Positions 17,875-24,418 of a DNA stretch of 64,000 nucleotides are shown piece by piece. A model generated the notes under the pieces. It worked only from the letters and a program-made list of their open reading frames with translations, had not been told where the DNA came from and made no database searches. Positions within the stretch are counted from its first letter, which is position 1; every line of letters begins with the position of its first letter. Origin of the DNA: Flavisolibacter ginsenosidimutans. Lineage in GTDB: Bacteria; Bacteroidota; Bacteroidia; Chitinophagales; Chitinophagaceae. The translations under genes were made by a program, and so were the position numbers. The stretch lies in the NCBI RefSeq assembly GCF_007970805.1, contig NZ_CP042433.1, positions 1,240,001 to 1,304,000 of the forward strand, written 5' to 3'.

Positions 17875-19396
17875 TTATTTATCCTTATCATCTAATGACT
17901 TGTCGTCGTTGTCTTTCTTGTCTTTGACCATAACCAGCTTTAGAATTTTTCCGGTATTGCCAGCGGGTCCGAGCCTGCTGGAAACAGCCAAATACATTTC
18001 GCCTTCCAGGTCTTGCCCAAATCCTTTTAGATAATAACCGATATCACCGGGGTGGCTTGCAAGTTCTATTTCCTGGTAGTCCCACAAGGAGGGGCCGTGT
18101 GGATTGGCGATAAAAAGTTCACCGTTTGGAGTTGTGGGCGTTTGCGAGAAGGTTCCAAAAATGTATTTCCCCTCAAGGCCGTGCAAATCGTTACCCCGGT
18201 AAACATTTCCGCCAATGATCGTGGTGGCTCTTCCTCCTCCTTCCGGATTCAACCAGTTTTTTACCTGAATGACCGGATCAATCAGCCTGTTGCCAAAAGC
18301 ATCTACATCGGGGCAATTTTGAACCTCAGCAAATTCATTGGCTGCGTTAAAACATTCAGTGCCTTCTTTTACGTTCCAACCGTAATTACCACCTTTTTCC
18401 ACCAGGTCTATTTCTTCATATCTCGATTGGCCAGCATCCATACCAAACAAGCGGTGCCCGTCTTTCATGTCAAATGAAAAGCGGAAGGGATTACGAAAAC
18501 CATAAGCCCATATTTCGTCCAGGCCTCTCTTCCCAACAAATGGATTATCCGGCGGAATGCCGTAAGCTTTACCCAAGCTCGTGGTGTTTACATCAATTTC
18601 GCAGAAAGTTTCCTAAAAGGTTTTGTTCAATGTCCTGCCCATTGCCGCCGGCGTTAAAGGCATACCAATCTTCTACGTGACCAGGCCCAATGTCGTTCTT
18701 GTTACCGCCGTCACCGATCGCTATATAGAGATAGCCATCAGGTCCAAAAGCAATCGTGCCGCCGTTGTGATTTGACTGCGGGTGAGGCTGCTGAAGAATT
18801 TTTCTTTCACTGCCCGCGTCGGCCATATTGGGATTAGACGAAACTCGGAATTCGGAAATCGTCGTCATATTGTTCCAAACCTTTGGAAGTCCCGTGTTTC
18901 CTGCATCGGAGGTGGGACCGCCGGGGGGCGGTGGAGCGGTGTAAAAAACATAAAATTTACCGTTGTAAGCATAGTTGGGATGGAAAGCAAGGCCCAAGAG
19001 TCCGCGCTCGTCGTAGCCCGGCGACAGCGGTGTAACCAGTTTGCTGCTGATGTCTAAAAAGGGCGTTGGTAATTTATTGCCGGCACCGTCAATGATCCAG
19101 ATTTTTCCAACCTGGTCAATTACAAACAAACGCTTGCTTTTGTCGGGCACAGCGACCAAACCAACAGGAGACACAAAGTTGTCGGCAACAAGCTTTACGT
19201 CCACAGCCTTGTTGCCTTCCACCTTCAGTGATTTTGATTGCAAGGCGTTTTCGGGTTCAGTCTTTGGTGGAGAAAGTTCTCGTTTACAACTTTGAAGCAA
19301 TAAAAACGCAACAAACAACGGAGATGCCCACGCGACTGCTACGGGCAGCCGCGCAAGACCTGCGATCTTCTTCAGTGTACTTTTTACTGAATGCAT
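17875..19396 (-). pseudogene. PQQ-dependent sugar dehydrogenase, split by a one-base frameshift
   Basis: Two adjacent frames (19396-18593, 267 residues; then 18576-17875, 233 residues) are halves of one soluble glucose/aldose dehydrogenase-like protein. The first has a lipoprotein signal (LLLQSCKRE) and the propeller motifs VIDQVGKIWIID, DERGLLGLAFHP and NHNGGTIAFGPDGYLYIAIGDGG. It ends NLLGNFLRN-stop. Removing one A from the AAA run (complement of 18597-18599) restores FLRIDVNTTSLGKAYGIPP and continues into DEIWAYGFRNPFRFSF, GGNYGWN and the end of the second half. The joined protein would be about 500 residues, normal for the family. It may be a real pseudogene, a sequencing error in a homopolymer, or a phase-variable site. 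The C-terminus is a charged Asp/Lys tail. Confidence 0.85.
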
Positions 19397-19782: not shown

Positions 19783-20205
19783 TTATTCGACCTGAATTTT
19801 GCCTTTCATGACGACATGAATGGCGCAGAAATAATCAGCGTTTTTGGTGAACACTTTTGTCCAGAATCTACCCGGTACGATTGTCGAAGATGTCCAGGCT
19901 TTGCCGGTATCGGTCACGCAATGATTGGTCAAATCATTGTTGATCCAAACGACAGTATCGCCCTTGTGAACGGTTAATTGATCGGGAACGAATTTCATCT
20001 TGTTGATCTCCACAATAAACCTGTGGTCGCCGGGTTGAGGCACAGCCGGAGCAGCAGATGAATCGATTGAGTTAGCCGCTTGCGGGTTCTCGTTTACATG
20101 CGGCAGGTTGTCGGGTTTTGGCTTATGGTCGTTGCAGCTTGCAATAAAAGCAAGGCAAGCAAGCAGCCAAACGCTGCCTGCCTTTAATGTTTTCATGAGG
20201 GTCAT
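19783..20205 (-). CDS. Cupredoxin (plastocyanin/azurin-like) lipoprotein
   Basis: 140 residues with a lipoprotein signal (FIASC, Cys24), a Pro/Asn-rich linker, and a single blue-copper domain. All four type-1 copper ligands can be seen: His95 (NNDLTNHCV), Cys127, His130 and Met133 (YFCAIHVVMKG). Such proteins carry electrons in the periplasm or at the outer face. It starts one base after the DUF4142 stop, so the two form an operon; the promoter at 20773-20803 matches that of the peroxidase and the ECF sigma factor. A role as electron donor to the di-haem peroxidase is an inference from this shared control. An alternative start is Met4. Confidence 0.9.
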   Translation of the reverse strand: MTLMKTLKAGSVWLLACLAFIASCNDHKPKPDNLPHVNENPQAANSIDSSAAPAVPQPGDHRFIVEINKMKFVPDQLTVHKGDTVVWINNDLTNHCVTDTGKAWTSSTIVPGRFWTKVFTKNADYFCAIHVVMKGKIQVE

Positions 20206-20206
20206 T

Positions 20207-20749
20207 TTACTTCAGGTTTTTTGCCACCATTTCTGCGTGTTCCAAATGGGTGTGGAGTACCGGCGATACGCTTTGAAGCAAACTTTTAAGTTCCGCGTTT
20301 TGCGCATCGGGAATCAGCGTTTTATCCACAGCGGCAATCACGGCCTTGTGATAGGTCACTTCGTTTTGTGCATAGGCTTTGTCAAAAGCTGGTCCTGACT
20401 TAGCTTCTAACCGTGCCATTGTTTTTTTGGCGTTGGCCTGCAGGTGTCTGGTAACTGCGTTGTCTTTTGGCGTGACGCCCAGCTTGGTGACGAGCGCCGA
20501 AGCTTTGTCAATAACTGATTGGTGGTCCGCAATCATGGTCTTGGCAAAATTGAGCACCTCGGCATTTTTTGATTTTTGTTGTGCTAGTTGGGCTGCCTGT
20601 ATGTCTATTTGGTTCGCAGCAACTGCTACCGAAGCAATTTCTGCATCGGAAAGCTTAGAAGCTTTTTTCTTTTGTGAGGTTGCCGGAAGGAACGCAACAA
20701 CCATGGCAATAATCAAGATGCAGGAGCGGAAAAGCATTTTCTTTTTCAT
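20207..20749 (-). CDS. DUF4142 secreted helical protein
   Basis: From the ATG at 20749 it encodes 180 residues: a signal peptide (MLFRSCILIIAMVVAFLPATSQ) and a four-helix, ferritin-like DUF4142 domain with the hallmark KTMIADHQSVIDKASAL and NEVTYHKAVIAAVDKTLIP, and an HTHLEHAE end. The longer frame upstream of 20749 covers the promoter, so I reject it. DUF4142 proteins are periplasmic and often follow ECF-sigma or envelope-stress genes; function unknown, though conserved His residues suggest metal binding. First gene of the DUF4142-cupredoxin operon. Confidence 0.9.
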   Translation of the reverse strand: MKKKMLFRSCILIIAMVVAFLPATSQKKKASKLSDAEIASVAVAANQIDIQAAQLAQQKSKNAEVLNFAKTMIADHQSVIDKASALVTKLGVTPKDNAVTRHLQANAKKTMARLEAKSGPAFDKAYAQNEVTYHKAVIAAVDKTLIPDAQNAELKSLLQSVSPVLHTHLEHAEMVAKNLK

Positions 20750-20772: not shown

Positions 20773-20803
20773 TATTGAGTAAGCAAAGACAGAAAAGGTT
20801 ACA
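20773..20803 (-). promoter_or_regulatory. ECF-type promoter for DUF4142-cupredoxin operon
   Basis: On the minus strand: TGTAACC, 14 bases, TTACTCAATA. The -10-like part ends about 24 bases before the DUF4142 ATG. It matches the promoters at 23368-23398 and 23488-23518 in both boxes and in exact spacing. Confidence 0.7.
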
Positions 20804-21264
20804 GTCCTTCTGAAATGTTTTATCGGGCAATGCAGCATTAAACAGTGGGCTTGCAAATTGGCAAGAAGGACTGCTTACGTTCAAGGGTTTACCTATGAGG
20901 GTGCATAACCCAGACTGTCAATTGCATTGGTTTTGTAATTTGACTTCGTGTTTTGCTGCTTTAAGCAGCTTGGCGAAAAAAATAGAAAGGCTGGCATTTG
21001 AGATTTCGGAGATAATGATTGCTCCGTTTTCGTCTTTGCTTTCGTTGTCCAATTGCGTGATAGTAACTTCTTGTTGAGCGGTTCCAGATTTATCTATGTT
21101 ATGCGGTGTAGTTGATACCTGATGAAACGGTAAAAACCCCTGATTTTGTTTCTACATCAACACTTTGACGACACCTGTTTCCACAAATGTCCACAAAGGT
21201 TTACTTGTACTTAAGTAATTTTCGTTTTCCTGCTCGCTCATTCCACTCAGTTTGTTTACTGCGG
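20804..21264. other. Region with a possible gene remnant
   Basis: On the minus strand a frame with no ATG is open from 21151 to a TGA at 20918-20920 and reads like protein (EVTITQLDNESKDENGAI, SLSIFFAKLLKAAKHEV). I do not recognise it; it may be the decayed end of a gene. No other feature is seen. Confidence 0.25.
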
Positions 21265-21525
21265 TTATGTGTTGATCAATTTCTTTGATAGCCGGTGCTG
21301 CGCAGTATTTAATTCGAAACCAGGCCATAGATTTATACCGGTAGCCCTCTTTATGTAGGGATCTACCGGGGCTTCGTTAAAATATTTTGCCCATTCACTG
21401 GTATTAATAAAAGTGGAACTGTCAACGGCTTCGTAGAGAAACTCGTCAATTTTTAATTCTACGGGAACGTTAGTAGATTCTGTTGGTGCAGAAATGGGCT
21501 GGTTATTTGTTTTATCCTTGTTCAT
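21265..21525 (-). CDS. Hypothetical small protein
   Basis: 86 residues from the ATG at 21525. It is polar and Asn/Thr-rich at the start, then has KIDEFLYEAVDSSTFINTSEWAKYF and a C-terminus with RATGINLWPGFELNTAQHRLSKKL. No signal peptide or known domain is seen. It lies among decayed genes (21645-21906 and 20918-21151), so it may itself be a remnant. Confidence 0.35.
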   Translation of the reverse strand: MNKDKTNNQPISAPTESTNVPVELKIDEFLYEAVDSSTFINTSEWAKYFNEAPVDPYIKRATGINLWPGFELNTAQHRLSKKLINT

Positions 21526-21644
21526 CTCTTTCTGTTGTTTTGGTTTACGTTCGTTATTTGGCAGTACTCCGCCGTCAGTATAACAATGCGACTCCGAATC
21601 TAGAAAGCTTTGTCGAAGTCCCGGAAATAACAAGCCCGAGAAAT

Positions 21645-21906
21645 TTATTTTTCAAAAACGACCGCGTCTGGTTTTGCACTAAGCAAATCAAGAGTTCATT
21701 GATGTCACTGATCATTTTATCCGGACCACAGATATAAAAGTGCCGGGTAAAGTCATCAACCCGGTTCTTTAAAAACGTTTCGTCAATCTTGCCCAAATCA
21801 TAGTGATCTGACTTTTCTTGCGTTGTTGTAAAGATGGCGTTGTCGCCCAGCATTGTCTAGTTCATCTTTCAAAATAACGTCTGCAGGCGTTTCCTTACGA
21901 AATAAT
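21645..21906 (-). pseudogene. Flavodoxin/ferredoxin reductase C-terminal remnant
   Basis: Translating in three successive frames gives the tail of a plant-type FAD/NAD(P) reductase: RKETPADVILKDELD, then MLGDNAIFTTTQEKSDHYD with FLKNRVDDFTRHFYICGPDKMISDINELL (the CGPD motif binds NAD(P)), then SAKPDAVVFEK and a TAA stop at 21645-21647. Each junction needs one inserted base, near 21851-21858 and near 21678-21682. The FAD-binding half is missing; the fragment begins next to the stop of the cytochrome c peroxidase gene. It is a decayed and truncated gene. Confidence 0.75.
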
Positions 21907-21916
21907 AGTTAAAACA

Positions 21917-23254
21917 CTACAATGATTTCAGGTACTCGACCAAATCTTTTTTCTCTGTCGTGGTCAGGTTTAAATGTTGAAACGCGTTGTAATGATTGAC
22001 AACGTCGTCATACGTTGCAAACCGGCCATCGTGATAAAAGCCGCCTTTTGCCCGTGCAAACAGGCCTCCCAACGGTGTCGTGCGGTATTTGCCGGTTGGC
22101 GATCGTTTGGCTTCAAAGTCATCAATGCCAAGTTCCGCTGCGCTGTGCAGGATATTGTCGGCCAGCAAAGGTTCTTTGTGGCAAGTAGCGCATTTTGCCT
22201 TGGTCAGAAAAACGGCTTTGCCACGTCCTGCCGCGCCGTGGTCAAAGCTTCCCGATGGTGGTTTCGGCGCATCAATAGAATGCTGGTATTCTCTTAACGC
22301 AGGCAATTTCGCAGTGATTAAATCCGGCGTGTGCGTTACGTTCCAAAAGCCGTTTTCCACTGCAATCGGGTATTTGATTGGATCATTCAGCCGGTCGTCG
22401 TGAAAATTTCCTTTCCCGTGCATTTCCAAATTGGCAACAAAGGAATTCCAATACGAAATGTCGCCCCATCCCGTATACGTTGTAAGGTCAATGTTTTTCA
22501 ATCCGAATGCGGCCGGTATCAGGTTGGCGGCTACTTTCCCGTCCGGACGCACAGCCTTGCCGTCCATAAATAATACAGCGGCAAATTTTCCGGGGCCCCA
22601 AGCGCCGAGTACCGACCGAAGCGTCGGCTCGTCTACATGCAGCAGGTTGGCTATCGGCGGTGCGTTATCGGTTAACGAGATGATTGCACCCACATTTAGA
22701 TCCCTGTTTGGCCAGCCGTCCAATCCTTTCCCGATTCCCGGTGCGAAAGAGTTGTCCACCGTTGAATGACAAGACGCACAGGTAATGCCGATTGATTTTA
22801 GTCCGCCTTCATTGTTGAAATTACCTTTTACGCCAACCACTGCGTTGAGCTTCAGCAAGGCGATGGTCGTGGCCGGATCATCGAGGTTTATCGTGCCTTC
22901 TTTGAGACCTTTGACAACTTCGGCGGGCAACGCATCGGCATCAACTTTTAGTCCAACCGACAGTGCTGTTTTAGGACTGACACCAGCCCCAAAGCCTCCA
23001 TTGTTGACGCCCGCAATTGCTTTGTCTATATGCAGAAGTCCGCTCCAAAAATCTCCATCACCAAAAGCATCGTAGCGAAAGATTTCCCGTCCTTCAGTAA
23101 CCAGTGATTTGTTTTTTTCTTTGTTGGCGGCCATTCCGCTTGCGGGCAAGCCAGCACTTGATACCTCGTCTTTTTTAATGTCACGTGAGCATTGCAGAAA
23201 AAAAACAACGACGGCCATGGAAGAGACTACAAGGATTGGTTTCTTGTATTTCAT
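21917..23254 (-). CDS. Di-haem cytochrome c peroxidase-family lipoprotein
   Basis: From the ATG at 23254 it encodes 445 residues with a lipoprotein signal (VVVFFLQC, Cys22). Two haem c motifs are seen: CASCH at 159-163 and CATCH at 355-359, as in the CcpA/MauG group. GGLFARAKGGFYHDGRFATYDDVV near the end is the typical region after the second haem. It would reduce H2O2 using electrons from a small donor at the cell surface or periplasm. Frames upstream of 23254 (to 23326) would cover the leader and are rejected. The promoter at 23368-23398 matches that of the divergent ECF sigma gene and the cupredoxin operon. Confidence 0.9.
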   Translation of the reverse strand: MKYKKPILVVSSMAVVVFFLQCSRDIKKDEVSSAGLPASGMAANKEKNKSLVTEGREIFRYDAFGDGDFWSGLLHIDKAIAGVNNGGFGAGVSPKTALSVGLKVDADALPAEVVKGLKEGTINLDDPATTIALLKLNAVVGVKGNFNNEGGLKSIGITCASCHSTVDNSFAPGIGKGLDGWPNRDLNVGAIISLTDNAPPIANLLHVDEPTLRSVLGAWGPGKFAAVLFMDGKAVRPDGKVAANLIPAAFGLKNIDLTTYTGWGDISYWNSFVANLEMHGKGNFHDDRLNDPIKYPIAVENGFWNVTHTPDLITAKLPALREYQHSIDAPKPPSGSFDHGAAGRGKAVFLTKAKCATCHKEPLLADNILHSAAELGIDDFEAKRSPTGKYRTTPLGGLFARAKGGFYHDGRFATYDDVVNHYNAFQHLNLTTTEKKDLVEYLKSL

Positions 23255-23367
23255 AAAATGTTTTTTGCATGTGAACCAATGTTGAATACGGCAAACGGGC
23301 AATGCTAAGTCGTTCAAAAAAGACAAAGAAGGTTTAACAACGCATATTTTGTTTTACCCTTTTTAGA

Positions 23368-23398
23368 TATAGAGTAAGCGAGTTCAAAAAAGGTTACA
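23368..23398 (-). promoter_or_regulatory. ECF-type promoter for the cytochrome c peroxidase gene
   Basis: On the minus strand: TGTAACC, 14 bases, TTACTCTATA, about 115 bases before the ATG at 23254. Identical in spacing to the two other copies. Confidence 0.7.
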
Positions 23399-23499
23399 AA
23401 AAATTTTTAGCAAAAAGGTGTGAATGGTGGAGGCGGCGGGACTTACAGGAATATTGAGAAAAGAAACTAATAAAAAATCGTAATTTTTGTAACCTTTTT
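23387..23499. repeat. 16-bp perfect inverted repeat formed by two divergent promoters
   Basis: AAAAAGGTTACAAAAA (23387-23402) and its exact complement (23484-23499) face each other 81 bases apart. The arms are the -35-like boxes, with A/T flanks, of the divergent promoters for the peroxidase and sigma genes. Confidence 0.8.
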
Positions 23500-23518
23500 A
23501 CCGCTTTCAAACTCTATG
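23488..23518 (+). promoter_or_regulatory. ECF-type promoter for the sigma factor gene
   Basis: TGTAACC, 14 bases, AAACTCTATG; the -10-like part lies about 60 bases before the ATG at 23576. Autoregulation is inferred because ECF genes usually transcribe themselves. Confidence 0.7.
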
Positions 23519-23575: not shown

Positions 23576-24238
23576 ATGAGAAAAACGGAATTATACGCTG
23601 CGCTTTCCGAGACAACAATTATCAATAGAATAATTTCTGGCGATACAGCCCTGTTTGAAATTTTGATAAGGCGATACAATGGTGTGTTGTATAAAATTGC
23701 GCGGAGCTATGGGTTCAATCACCAGGACGCAGAAGACTTGATGCAAGAGACGCACATTGCCGCCTATTTAAAATTGAACCAGTTTGAAGGCAGGGCCGCC
23801 TATAAAACCTGGCTTTCAAAAATTATGTCGAACAAGTGCCTATATAAACTAAGCCACGGTGTTGTAAGGAACGAACAACCTGATGAAAATATAGGTGAAA
23901 CCGCAAATCCTTTGTTCTCAAACACAGACGCGCAAGCCGTTGAAACGATCGTCATGAAAAGAGAGTTTTCAAATTTTTTGGAAGCCAGTCTAAACAACCT
24001 TGCGCCTATCTACCGCACGGTGTTTGTGTTGCGGGAAATAGAAGGTTTTTCCGTTGCCGAAACGGCAGAACTATTGAACATTTCGGAAGTCAACGTTAAG
24101 GTCCGATTAAACCGGGCAAAGACCATGCTGCAAGAGCAATTGCAACACTTGTACAGCTCAATGGAGATATACGAATTTAACCGGGTGTATTGTGACCGTG
24201 TAGTAAACAACGTTTTTAAAAAAATCCTTGCGAACTAA
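23576..24238 (+). CDS. ECF (sigma-70 family) RNA polymerase sigma factor
   Basis: 220 residues. Region 2 is clear (FEILIRRYNGVLYKIARSYGFNHQDAEDLMQETHIAAYL, TWLSKIMSNKCL) and region 4 follows a polar linker (LNNLAPIYRTVFVLREIEGFSVAETAELLNISEVNVKVRLNRAKTMLQEQL), with a helix-turn-helix near residues 155-185. About 35 extra residues follow region 4. No anti-sigma gene is adjacent; the next gene is a 54-residue protein. Its own promoter, that of the divergent peroxidase and that of the DUF4142-cupredoxin operon share one motif, so this factor probably controls all three. Confidence 0.93.
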   Translation: MRKTELYAALSETTIINRIISGDTALFEILIRRYNGVLYKIARSYGFNHQDAEDLMQETHIAAYLKLNQFEGRAAYKTWLSKIMSNKCLYKLSHGVVRNEQPDENIGETANPLFSNTDAQAVETIVMKREFSNFLEASLNNLAPIYRTVFVLREIEGFSVAETAELLNISEVNVKVRLNRAKTMLQEQLQHLYSSMEIYEFNRVYCDRVVNNVFKKILAN

Positions 24239-24253
24239 AACTTGTAACGTTAC

Positions 24254-24418
24254 ATGGAAGTAAAAATGTTTGTGGCTGACCGGCCCGAGATCGCAGAAGC
24301 AAACATCAACGATTGGCTAAAAGGAAGTCGTGCAAAAGTCCTTTACATCGGTCAATCACAGAGTGAGCGCAACGGAAAATTTGTCTTCGTGATTTCTGTT
24401 TTCTACTCAAACAATTAA
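24254..24418 (+). CDS. 54-residue Cse60-like small protein
   Basis: The frame runs from ATG 24254 to TAA 24416-24418, 15 bases after the sigma factor stop. The layout (VKMFVADR, INDWLKGS, KVLYIGQSQSERNG, FVFVISVFY) matches the beta-alpha-beta-beta pattern of the short Cse60/DUF2758-like family: a strand, a helix with an N-x-W-L end, a q-S turn and a final strand ending in Y. Members are known from sporulating Firmicutes and occur in other phyla; function unknown. Position suggests co-transcription with the sigma gene. Confidence 0.6.
   Translation: MEVKMFVADRPEIAEANINDWLKGSRAKVLYIGQSQSERNGKFVFVISVFYSNN

Follow-up and report, generated by a model that had tools for sequence, protein, structure and literature searches.

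A two-box motif, TGTAACC and WWACTCWAT separated by 14 bases, occurs three times in a 64,000-nucleotide stretch of the Flavisolibacter ginsenosidimutans genome (contig NZ_CP042433.1, positions 1,240,001 to 1,304,000; the window), where it precedes the gene for an extracytoplasmic function (ECF) sigma factor, the divergent gene for a di-haem cytochrome and an operon encoding a DUF4142 protein and a cupredoxin. Very probably, this motif serves as the -35/-10 promoter for one ECF sigma lineage of Bacteroidota, and the sigma factor runs the genes at all three sites, its own included, with an oxidative or electron-flow role in the envelope the most likely one. Sigma loci bearing the motif come from at least four bacteroidotal orders. 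The promoters and the genes they are predicted to serve are as follows, lengths being given in amino acids (aa) and the N-terminal features having been judged by eye.

20774 to 20803, minus strand: predicted ECF promoter of the DUF4142-cupredoxin operon, TGTAACCTTTTCTGTCTTTGCTTACTCAAT; an exact match, and locus L103 also has the motif with a DUF4142-cupredoxin pair
23369 to 23398, minus strand: predicted ECF promoter of the di-haem cytochrome gene, TGTAACCTTTTTTGAACTCGCTTACTCTAT; an exact match, and homologues elsewhere are also preceded by the motif
23488 to 23517, plus strand: predicted autoregulatory ECF promoter, TGTAACCTTTTTACCGCTTTCAAACTCTAT; an exact match, and sigma relatives also have the motif upstream
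23576 to 24238, plus strand: ECF sigma factor, 220 aa; PF04542 and PF08281; predicted C-terminal helix at residues 195-219, containing Cys206
20207 to 20749, minus strand: DUF4142 protein, 180 aa; PF13628 at 132.5 bits (cut-off 27); signal-peptide-like start
19783 to 20205, minus strand: cupredoxin, 140 aa; PF00127 at 31.8 bits (cut-off 21.2); lipoprotein-like start
21917 to 23254, minus strand: di-haem c-type cytochrome, CCP/MauG-like, 445 aa; CASCH at residue 159 and CATCH at residue 355; lipoprotein-like start

The pattern TGTAACC-N14-WWACTCWAT was searched on both strands, with the same pattern reversed as the control. All three sites matched without a mismatch, so that both boxes and the spacing given in a preliminary description of this DNA were correct, its spans being one base too long. 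With up to two mismatches allowed, the window yielded only the same three sites, where 0.21 were expected, and three sites were reached in none of 100 shuffles. The preliminary description had also proposed a genome-wide search; in the genome (one contig of 5,079,621 bases) there were three exact sites, all of them in the window and each before one of the named genes, no sites with one mismatch and 16 with two. As the total of 19 sites compares with 14 for the reversed control, the two-mismatch sites are close to the chance level and mostly chance matches. The start codon follows the last base of the -10 box after 24 bases in the DUF4142 gene, after 114 in the cytochrome gene and after 58 in the sigma gene. 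At the -10 place the window sites read ACTCAA or ACTCTA, and the site of the DUF4142 gene ends in CTCAAT, a variant of the consensus.

Conservation was assessed at the loci of the best 80 of 543 sigma relatives (1.15 Mb, both strands). The strict motif gave 68 sites in 58 of the 80 loci and the reversed pattern a single site. A strict site stood on the sigma strand, at most 1.6 kb before the sigma start, in 55 of 80 loci against none of 80 for the reversed control, and the real pattern occurred once in the 1.6-kb stretch downstream of the sigma gene. Loci with a strict site include those of Niastella (Chitinophagales), Pontibacter (Cytophagales), Pedobacter (Sphingobacteriales) and Flavobacterium (Flavobacteriales), orders having been assigned for four species, and because strict sites span these four orders the link between motif and sigma factor is old within Bacteroidota. 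Locus L126 repeats the divergent arrangement of sigma and cytochrome genes, with a strict site before the former and a one-base-looser site before the latter. As a separate observation, in the Pontibacter loci L060, L070 and L089 the motif lies before a peptidase S51 family gene adjoining the sigma gene (assigned by Pfam for L060 and by similarity for the others).

Scans that used the pattern alone, regardless of the sigma gene, gave 15 matches against 2 for the control at one spacing and 27 against 4 at the next spacing in 146 genomes of the family. The 18 genomes of the genus yielded 17 matches and one control match. Across the 146 genomes, motif and sigma factor occurred together in 24, the sigma factor alone in 14, the motif alone in 2 and neither in 106 (Fisher p = 1.3e-15, a nominal value, related genomes not being independent; the sigma factor was counted as present at E values up to 1e-30). 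The corresponding counts for the reversed control were 2, 36, 4 and 104 (p = 0.65). The sigma factor was thus present in 24 of the 26 motif-bearing genomes of the family, and within the genus in 9 of 9 genomes with the motif and in 13 of 18 overall.

The three scans provided 55 distinct pattern-only sites, two of which are the window's own, and a gene was counted as downstream if its same-strand alignment began within 240 bases. By this measure, 49 of the 55 sites precede a gene of a regulon family: sigma factor (12), DUF4142 (11), DoxX-like (11), di-haem cytochrome (8), an exported protein of 218-221 aa (3), GTP cyclohydrolase I (2) and a 112-aa membrane protein (2). When only the three families named in the window (sigma, DUF4142 and di-haem cytochrome) are admitted, 31 of 55 sites qualify, and leaving out the two in the window itself makes this 29 of 53. 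In a separate pool that mixed loci chosen by the sigma factor with loci chosen by the motif, sites of identical context were counted once, and its family counts do not serve as evidence of enrichment. The DUF4142-cupredoxin pair is conserved too: in the named loci, 12 of 13 DUF4142 homologues have a cupredoxin homologue after them. In relatives the motif also precedes genes for a DoxX-like membrane protein, GTP cyclohydrolase I and a 220-aa exported protein.

The refined consensus is TGTAACCTTT, 12-13 bases and ACTCTA(A/T). In a collection of 115 sites, 86 are 30 bases long and 25 are 29 bases long (111 of 115), though lengths of 27-31 were allowed, and ACTCTA prevails in the 86 sites of 30 bases. 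Positions left free by the collection pattern show a strong preference for T at positions 9 and 10, and for A followed by C directly before TCTA, preferences that must be read with the way the loci were obtained, as some were fetched with a pattern fixing TT or C and TCTA itself was part of the search pattern. An open reading frame (ORF) of the same orientation lies downstream of 111 sites; it starts a median of 31 bases away, and 15-60 bases away at 73 of these sites.

This geometry bears on what the motif is. That three AT-rich upstream regions resemble each other by chance is hardly credible: nothing speaks for it beyond the small number of sites in one genome, and the shuffles, control patterns and cross-species counts make it very unlikely. 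Alternatively, the motif could be an operator, bound by an unrelated transcription factor that regulates the sigma gene as well; conservation alone cannot separate a promoter from an operator, and any regulator of the same genes would co-occur with the sigma factor. We nevertheless consider an operator improbable, because the motif is asymmetric and consists of two boxes with nearly constant overall length and a short median distance to the start codon, and because its -35 box is identical to that reported for ECF16. From the motif, its conservation, its co-occurrence with the sigma factor and the gene content, all observed directly, we infer that the sigma factor reads the motif. The proposal of the preliminary description, that the ECF sigma factor controls the motif-bearing genes and its own, gains support from the conservation of the motif upstream of sigma genes and from the co-occurrence, and on these two lines of sequence evidence the combination of an ECF promoter, autoregulation and a small redox regulon is strongly supported. 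The active sigma factor would bring about transcription of its own gene, of the divergent di-haem cytochrome gene and of the DUF4142-cupredoxin operon, and in relatives the same promoter would serve the genes for the DoxX-like protein, GTP cyclohydrolase I and the 220-aa exported protein.

Several observations weigh against such a regulon. In the family, 14 of the 38 sigma-bearing genomes have no strict match, and the 1.6 kb upstream of sigma lack a strict site in 25 of the 80 loci; a looser pattern, applied without a control, gives a site in 15 of these 25 loci, the site in L095 being unlike the consensus. Some of the 55 upstream sites belong to a gene lying between the site and the sigma gene. 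Six of the 55 pattern-only sites have no regulon gene downstream, and for one of the six the contig ends 144 bases away. Apart from sigma, DUF4142 and cytochrome, the families were picked after the downstream genes had been inspected, and for that reason 31 of 55 is the stricter count. Finally, the genome contains two sigma paralogues that could share the sites.

The second sigma gene (C1:210294-210911, minus strand; L130, 7253-7945) is of the same lineage, and its product is 58% identical to the window sigma factor and has the same C-terminal tail. A two-mismatch site lies upstream of it (C1:211064-211093, minus strand), and downstream are genes for GTP cyclohydrolase I, an FAD/NAD oxidoreductase and a 205-aa protein without a Pfam match. 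The motif could therefore be an ECF promoter whose main user at the three window sites is the paralogue, or both factors together, as the identity, the shared tail and the near match before the paralogue's own gene would allow. We judge this unlikely, given that the window sigma gene adjoins two of the three exact sites and lies within 2.8 kb of the third, and that the paralogue's own site deviates from the consensus at the last A of the -10 box.

The signal to which the regulon responds is a separate question. An envelope role of an oxidative or electron-flow kind is considered the most likely because most of the products, judged by eye and from Pfam, look exported or membrane bound and haem, copper or flavin is present in several, and the cupredoxin and the cytochrome presumably work together. 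The regulon would then answer a disturbance of oxidative state or electron flow in the envelope. The putative role given in the preliminary description, in which electrons would pass from the cupredoxin to a peroxidase under oxidative or envelope stress, agrees with the gene content and with the closest studied regulons. GTP cyclohydrolase I is linked to light regulons, and it is possible, if rather doubtful, that the regulon is real and the signal is sulfur, metal or light instead of oxidative or envelope stress, a reading that otherwise overlaps with the one preferred here. In its favor, RpoE1/RpoE4 of Sinorhizobium meliloti (ECF26) respond to sulfite and drive a cytochrome c and a pseudoazurin (PMC3511301), and the ECF16 factor SigF of Caulobacter crescentus responds to chromium and cadmium, with a DoxX gene among its targets (PMC3511200). 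However, families for sulfite oxidation, metal export or photolyase activity were absent from the downstream-gene representatives scanned, some single downstream genes lying outside the scan. As ECF16 regulons answer hydrogen peroxide or chromium and cadmium, and ECF26 sulfite, the inducing signal is likely to be envelope stress of an oxidative or electron-flow kind, judged by gene content and by analogy with the closest studied regulons.

The 220-aa protein is an ECF (group 4) sigma factor, with sigma2 and sigma4 and without sigma1.1 and sigma3. A structure model made from an alignment of 50 of the 80 relatives and the window protein (mean predicted local distance difference test score [pLDDT], 81.3) matches region 2 of Escherichia coli sigmaE (4lup; Z 14.7, root mean square deviation [rmsd] 1.5, 91 aligned) and the -35 domain of SigL (3hug; Z 11.1, rmsd 1.3, 72 aligned), and these matches hardly cover the C-terminal helix at residues 195-219, a gap that has no meaning on its own. 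The best NCBIfam model, NF008888 (PRK11922), covers residues 7-217, thus spanning the C-terminal tail, at 186.7 bits, below its curated cut-off of 204. Cys206 is present in 81 of 81 aligned sigma sequences and Cys88 in 80 of 81. Ten other ECF factors of the same genome, part of 17 further matches, were compared; three of them also have Cys88, and none aligns a residue to Cys206. A thiol switch between Cys88 and Cys206 was considered and rejected; as Cys88 also occurs in other ECF factors, this residue lends little support to a redox-sensing reading.

No anti-sigma domain, DUF1109 included, was found among the 25 commonest of the 51 Pfam families in 118 of the 122 same-strand neighbors of the sigma genes; one of the four omitted, the DoxX-like protein of L118, was scanned separately. 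The commonest neighbor family was GTP cyclohydrolase I, with 27 among the 118. In 79 of the 80 loci (L060 was dropped, its sigma ORF being unmatched), a DoxX-like gene lies directly before the sigma gene on the same strand in 34, GTP cyclohydrolase directly after it in 26 and an FAD/NAD oxidoreductase second after it in 15. The DoxX-like protein is unlikely to be an obligatory anti-sigma factor, since motif and sigma factor persist without it; a single query found no DoxX-like match in the window genome and matched 7 of the 18 genomes of the genus. The ORF that follows the window sigma gene encodes only 54 aa:

24254 to 24418, plus strand: 54-aa ORF, separated from the sigma stop by 15 bases; no Pfam family reached its cut-off

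Of 98 relatives, 7 have a homologue (51-54 aa), every one a member of the genus; by coordinates five of the seven homologues lie beside the sigma gene. The protein is a candidate small partner of the sigma factor. A palindrome, TGTAACGTTACA, is present at 24243-24254 between the sigma stop and this ORF and has TGTAAC in common with the -35 box. One could also imagine that the sigma factor lacks a classical anti-sigma factor and that its C-terminal helix, with the invariant cysteine, senses redox state or a metal within the cell, setting the sigma factor free to switch on an envelope electron-transfer set (cupredoxin, DUF4142, di-haem cytochrome and DoxX-like proteins); we rate this scheme as tentative and rather improbable.

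By their Pfam matches, the ECF sigma factor and the DUF4142-cupredoxin operon are as the preliminary description named them. Cupredoxins of the plastocyanin/azurin type have the ligand pattern C-x-x-H-x(n)-M, and the 140-aa protein has, in addition to PF00127 above its cut-off, the C-x2-H-x2-M motif CAIHVVM at residue 127, which by sequence makes it a cupredoxin. The 445-aa protein had been called a di-haem cytochrome c peroxidase. Its two CxxCH motifs bear out the first part of that name: both are kept in 6 of 6 aligned sequences, PF00034 (cytochrome c domain) scores 24.0 bits (cut-off 21.3) and the L080 homologue is 76% identical. The second part is plausible but not secured by the sequence, as the NCBIfam models MauG (31.5 bits; cut-off, 443.85) and CytoC_perox (25.0 bits; cut-off, 150) stay far below their cut-offs, PF03150 (CCP_MauG) was unreported by the Pfam scan of the window cytochrome and reached 23.8 and 21.2 bits in two relatives (cut-off, 25.6), and a sequence search of solved structures gave no match for the protein. 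A structure model made from six sequences was too poor for use (mean pLDDT, 41.9). Between the cytochrome gene and the DUF4142-cupredoxin operon is a gene remnant:

21648 to 21908, minus strand: FAD/NAD oxidoreductase, broken remnant; three tblastn pieces with 45-61% identity; an open-frame relative is in the operon of the paralogous sigma factor

Elsewhere in the window, a glucose/sorbosone dehydrogenase-like gene (17875-19396, minus strand) is split in two frames (17875-18576 and 18593-19396) by a frame break or a sequencing error.

To our knowledge, the ECF regulons of Bacteroidota have been little mapped. The sharp promoter consensus predicts the same small gene set in many genera of Bacteroidota, which makes the regulon directly testable, and a functional context is gained for DUF4142 and for a DoxX-like protein of unknown role. 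A sigma lineage without an obvious anti-sigma neighbor is also a place to look for other forms of control. No account of this regulon was recognized in literature searches of open-licence papers, and calling it undescribed would hold only within those searches.

Bacteroidota ECF promoters have been described from mapped transcription starts in Flavobacterium psychrophilum; these SM6 ECF promoters have CGT in the -10 region, and their targets include several components of type IX secretion; a TGTAACC regulon is unmentioned in the sections concerned (PMC9723704). RpoE2 of Haemophilus influenzae resembles the system proposed here in having an oxidant-responsive envelope regulon with a DoxX-like operon and differs in its 67-aa cytoplasmic anti-sigma factor HrsE, its target MsrAB and its very limited autoregulation (PMC7907618). 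With respect to control, in some members of ECF57 and in CorE/ECF238, conserved cysteines or a C-terminal extension have been proposed, or demonstrated, to govern the sigma factor with no anti-sigma factor involved; those extensions are of the WD40 type or cysteine rich, whereas here the tail has about 28 residues and one conserved cysteine (PMC8999054).

The ECF26 factors RpoE1/RpoE4 are autoregulated, as is predicted for the window sigma factor, and likewise have targets encoding a cytochrome c and a blue copper protein; in S. meliloti the sulfite oxidase gene sorT is a main target and COG5662-type anti-sigma genes follow the sigma genes (PMC3511301). ECF16, represented by SigF of C. crescentus and EcfF of Bradyrhizobium japonicum, is described as having the -35 box tGTAACc, autoregulation and a small regulon, which in the case of EcfF is induced by hydrogen peroxide (PMC3511200, PMC3420878). 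In the descriptions consulted, ECF16 differs in the -10 box, CGAA after 16 bases or (c,t)CG(t,a) against ACTCTA here; in the DUF1109 anti-sigma factor (NrsF/OsrA) encoded in the sigma operon, of which there is none among the commonest neighbor families here; and, for EcfF, in having methionine sulfoxide reductases as targets, none of which occurred among the downstream genes scanned. The different -10 box argues against filing the present lineage as ECF16. The -35 box is nevertheless the same, TGTAACC standing at all three window sites, and a DoxX target is held in common with the relatives of the window sigma factor, so that by these two features ECF16 is the closest known of the studied cases.

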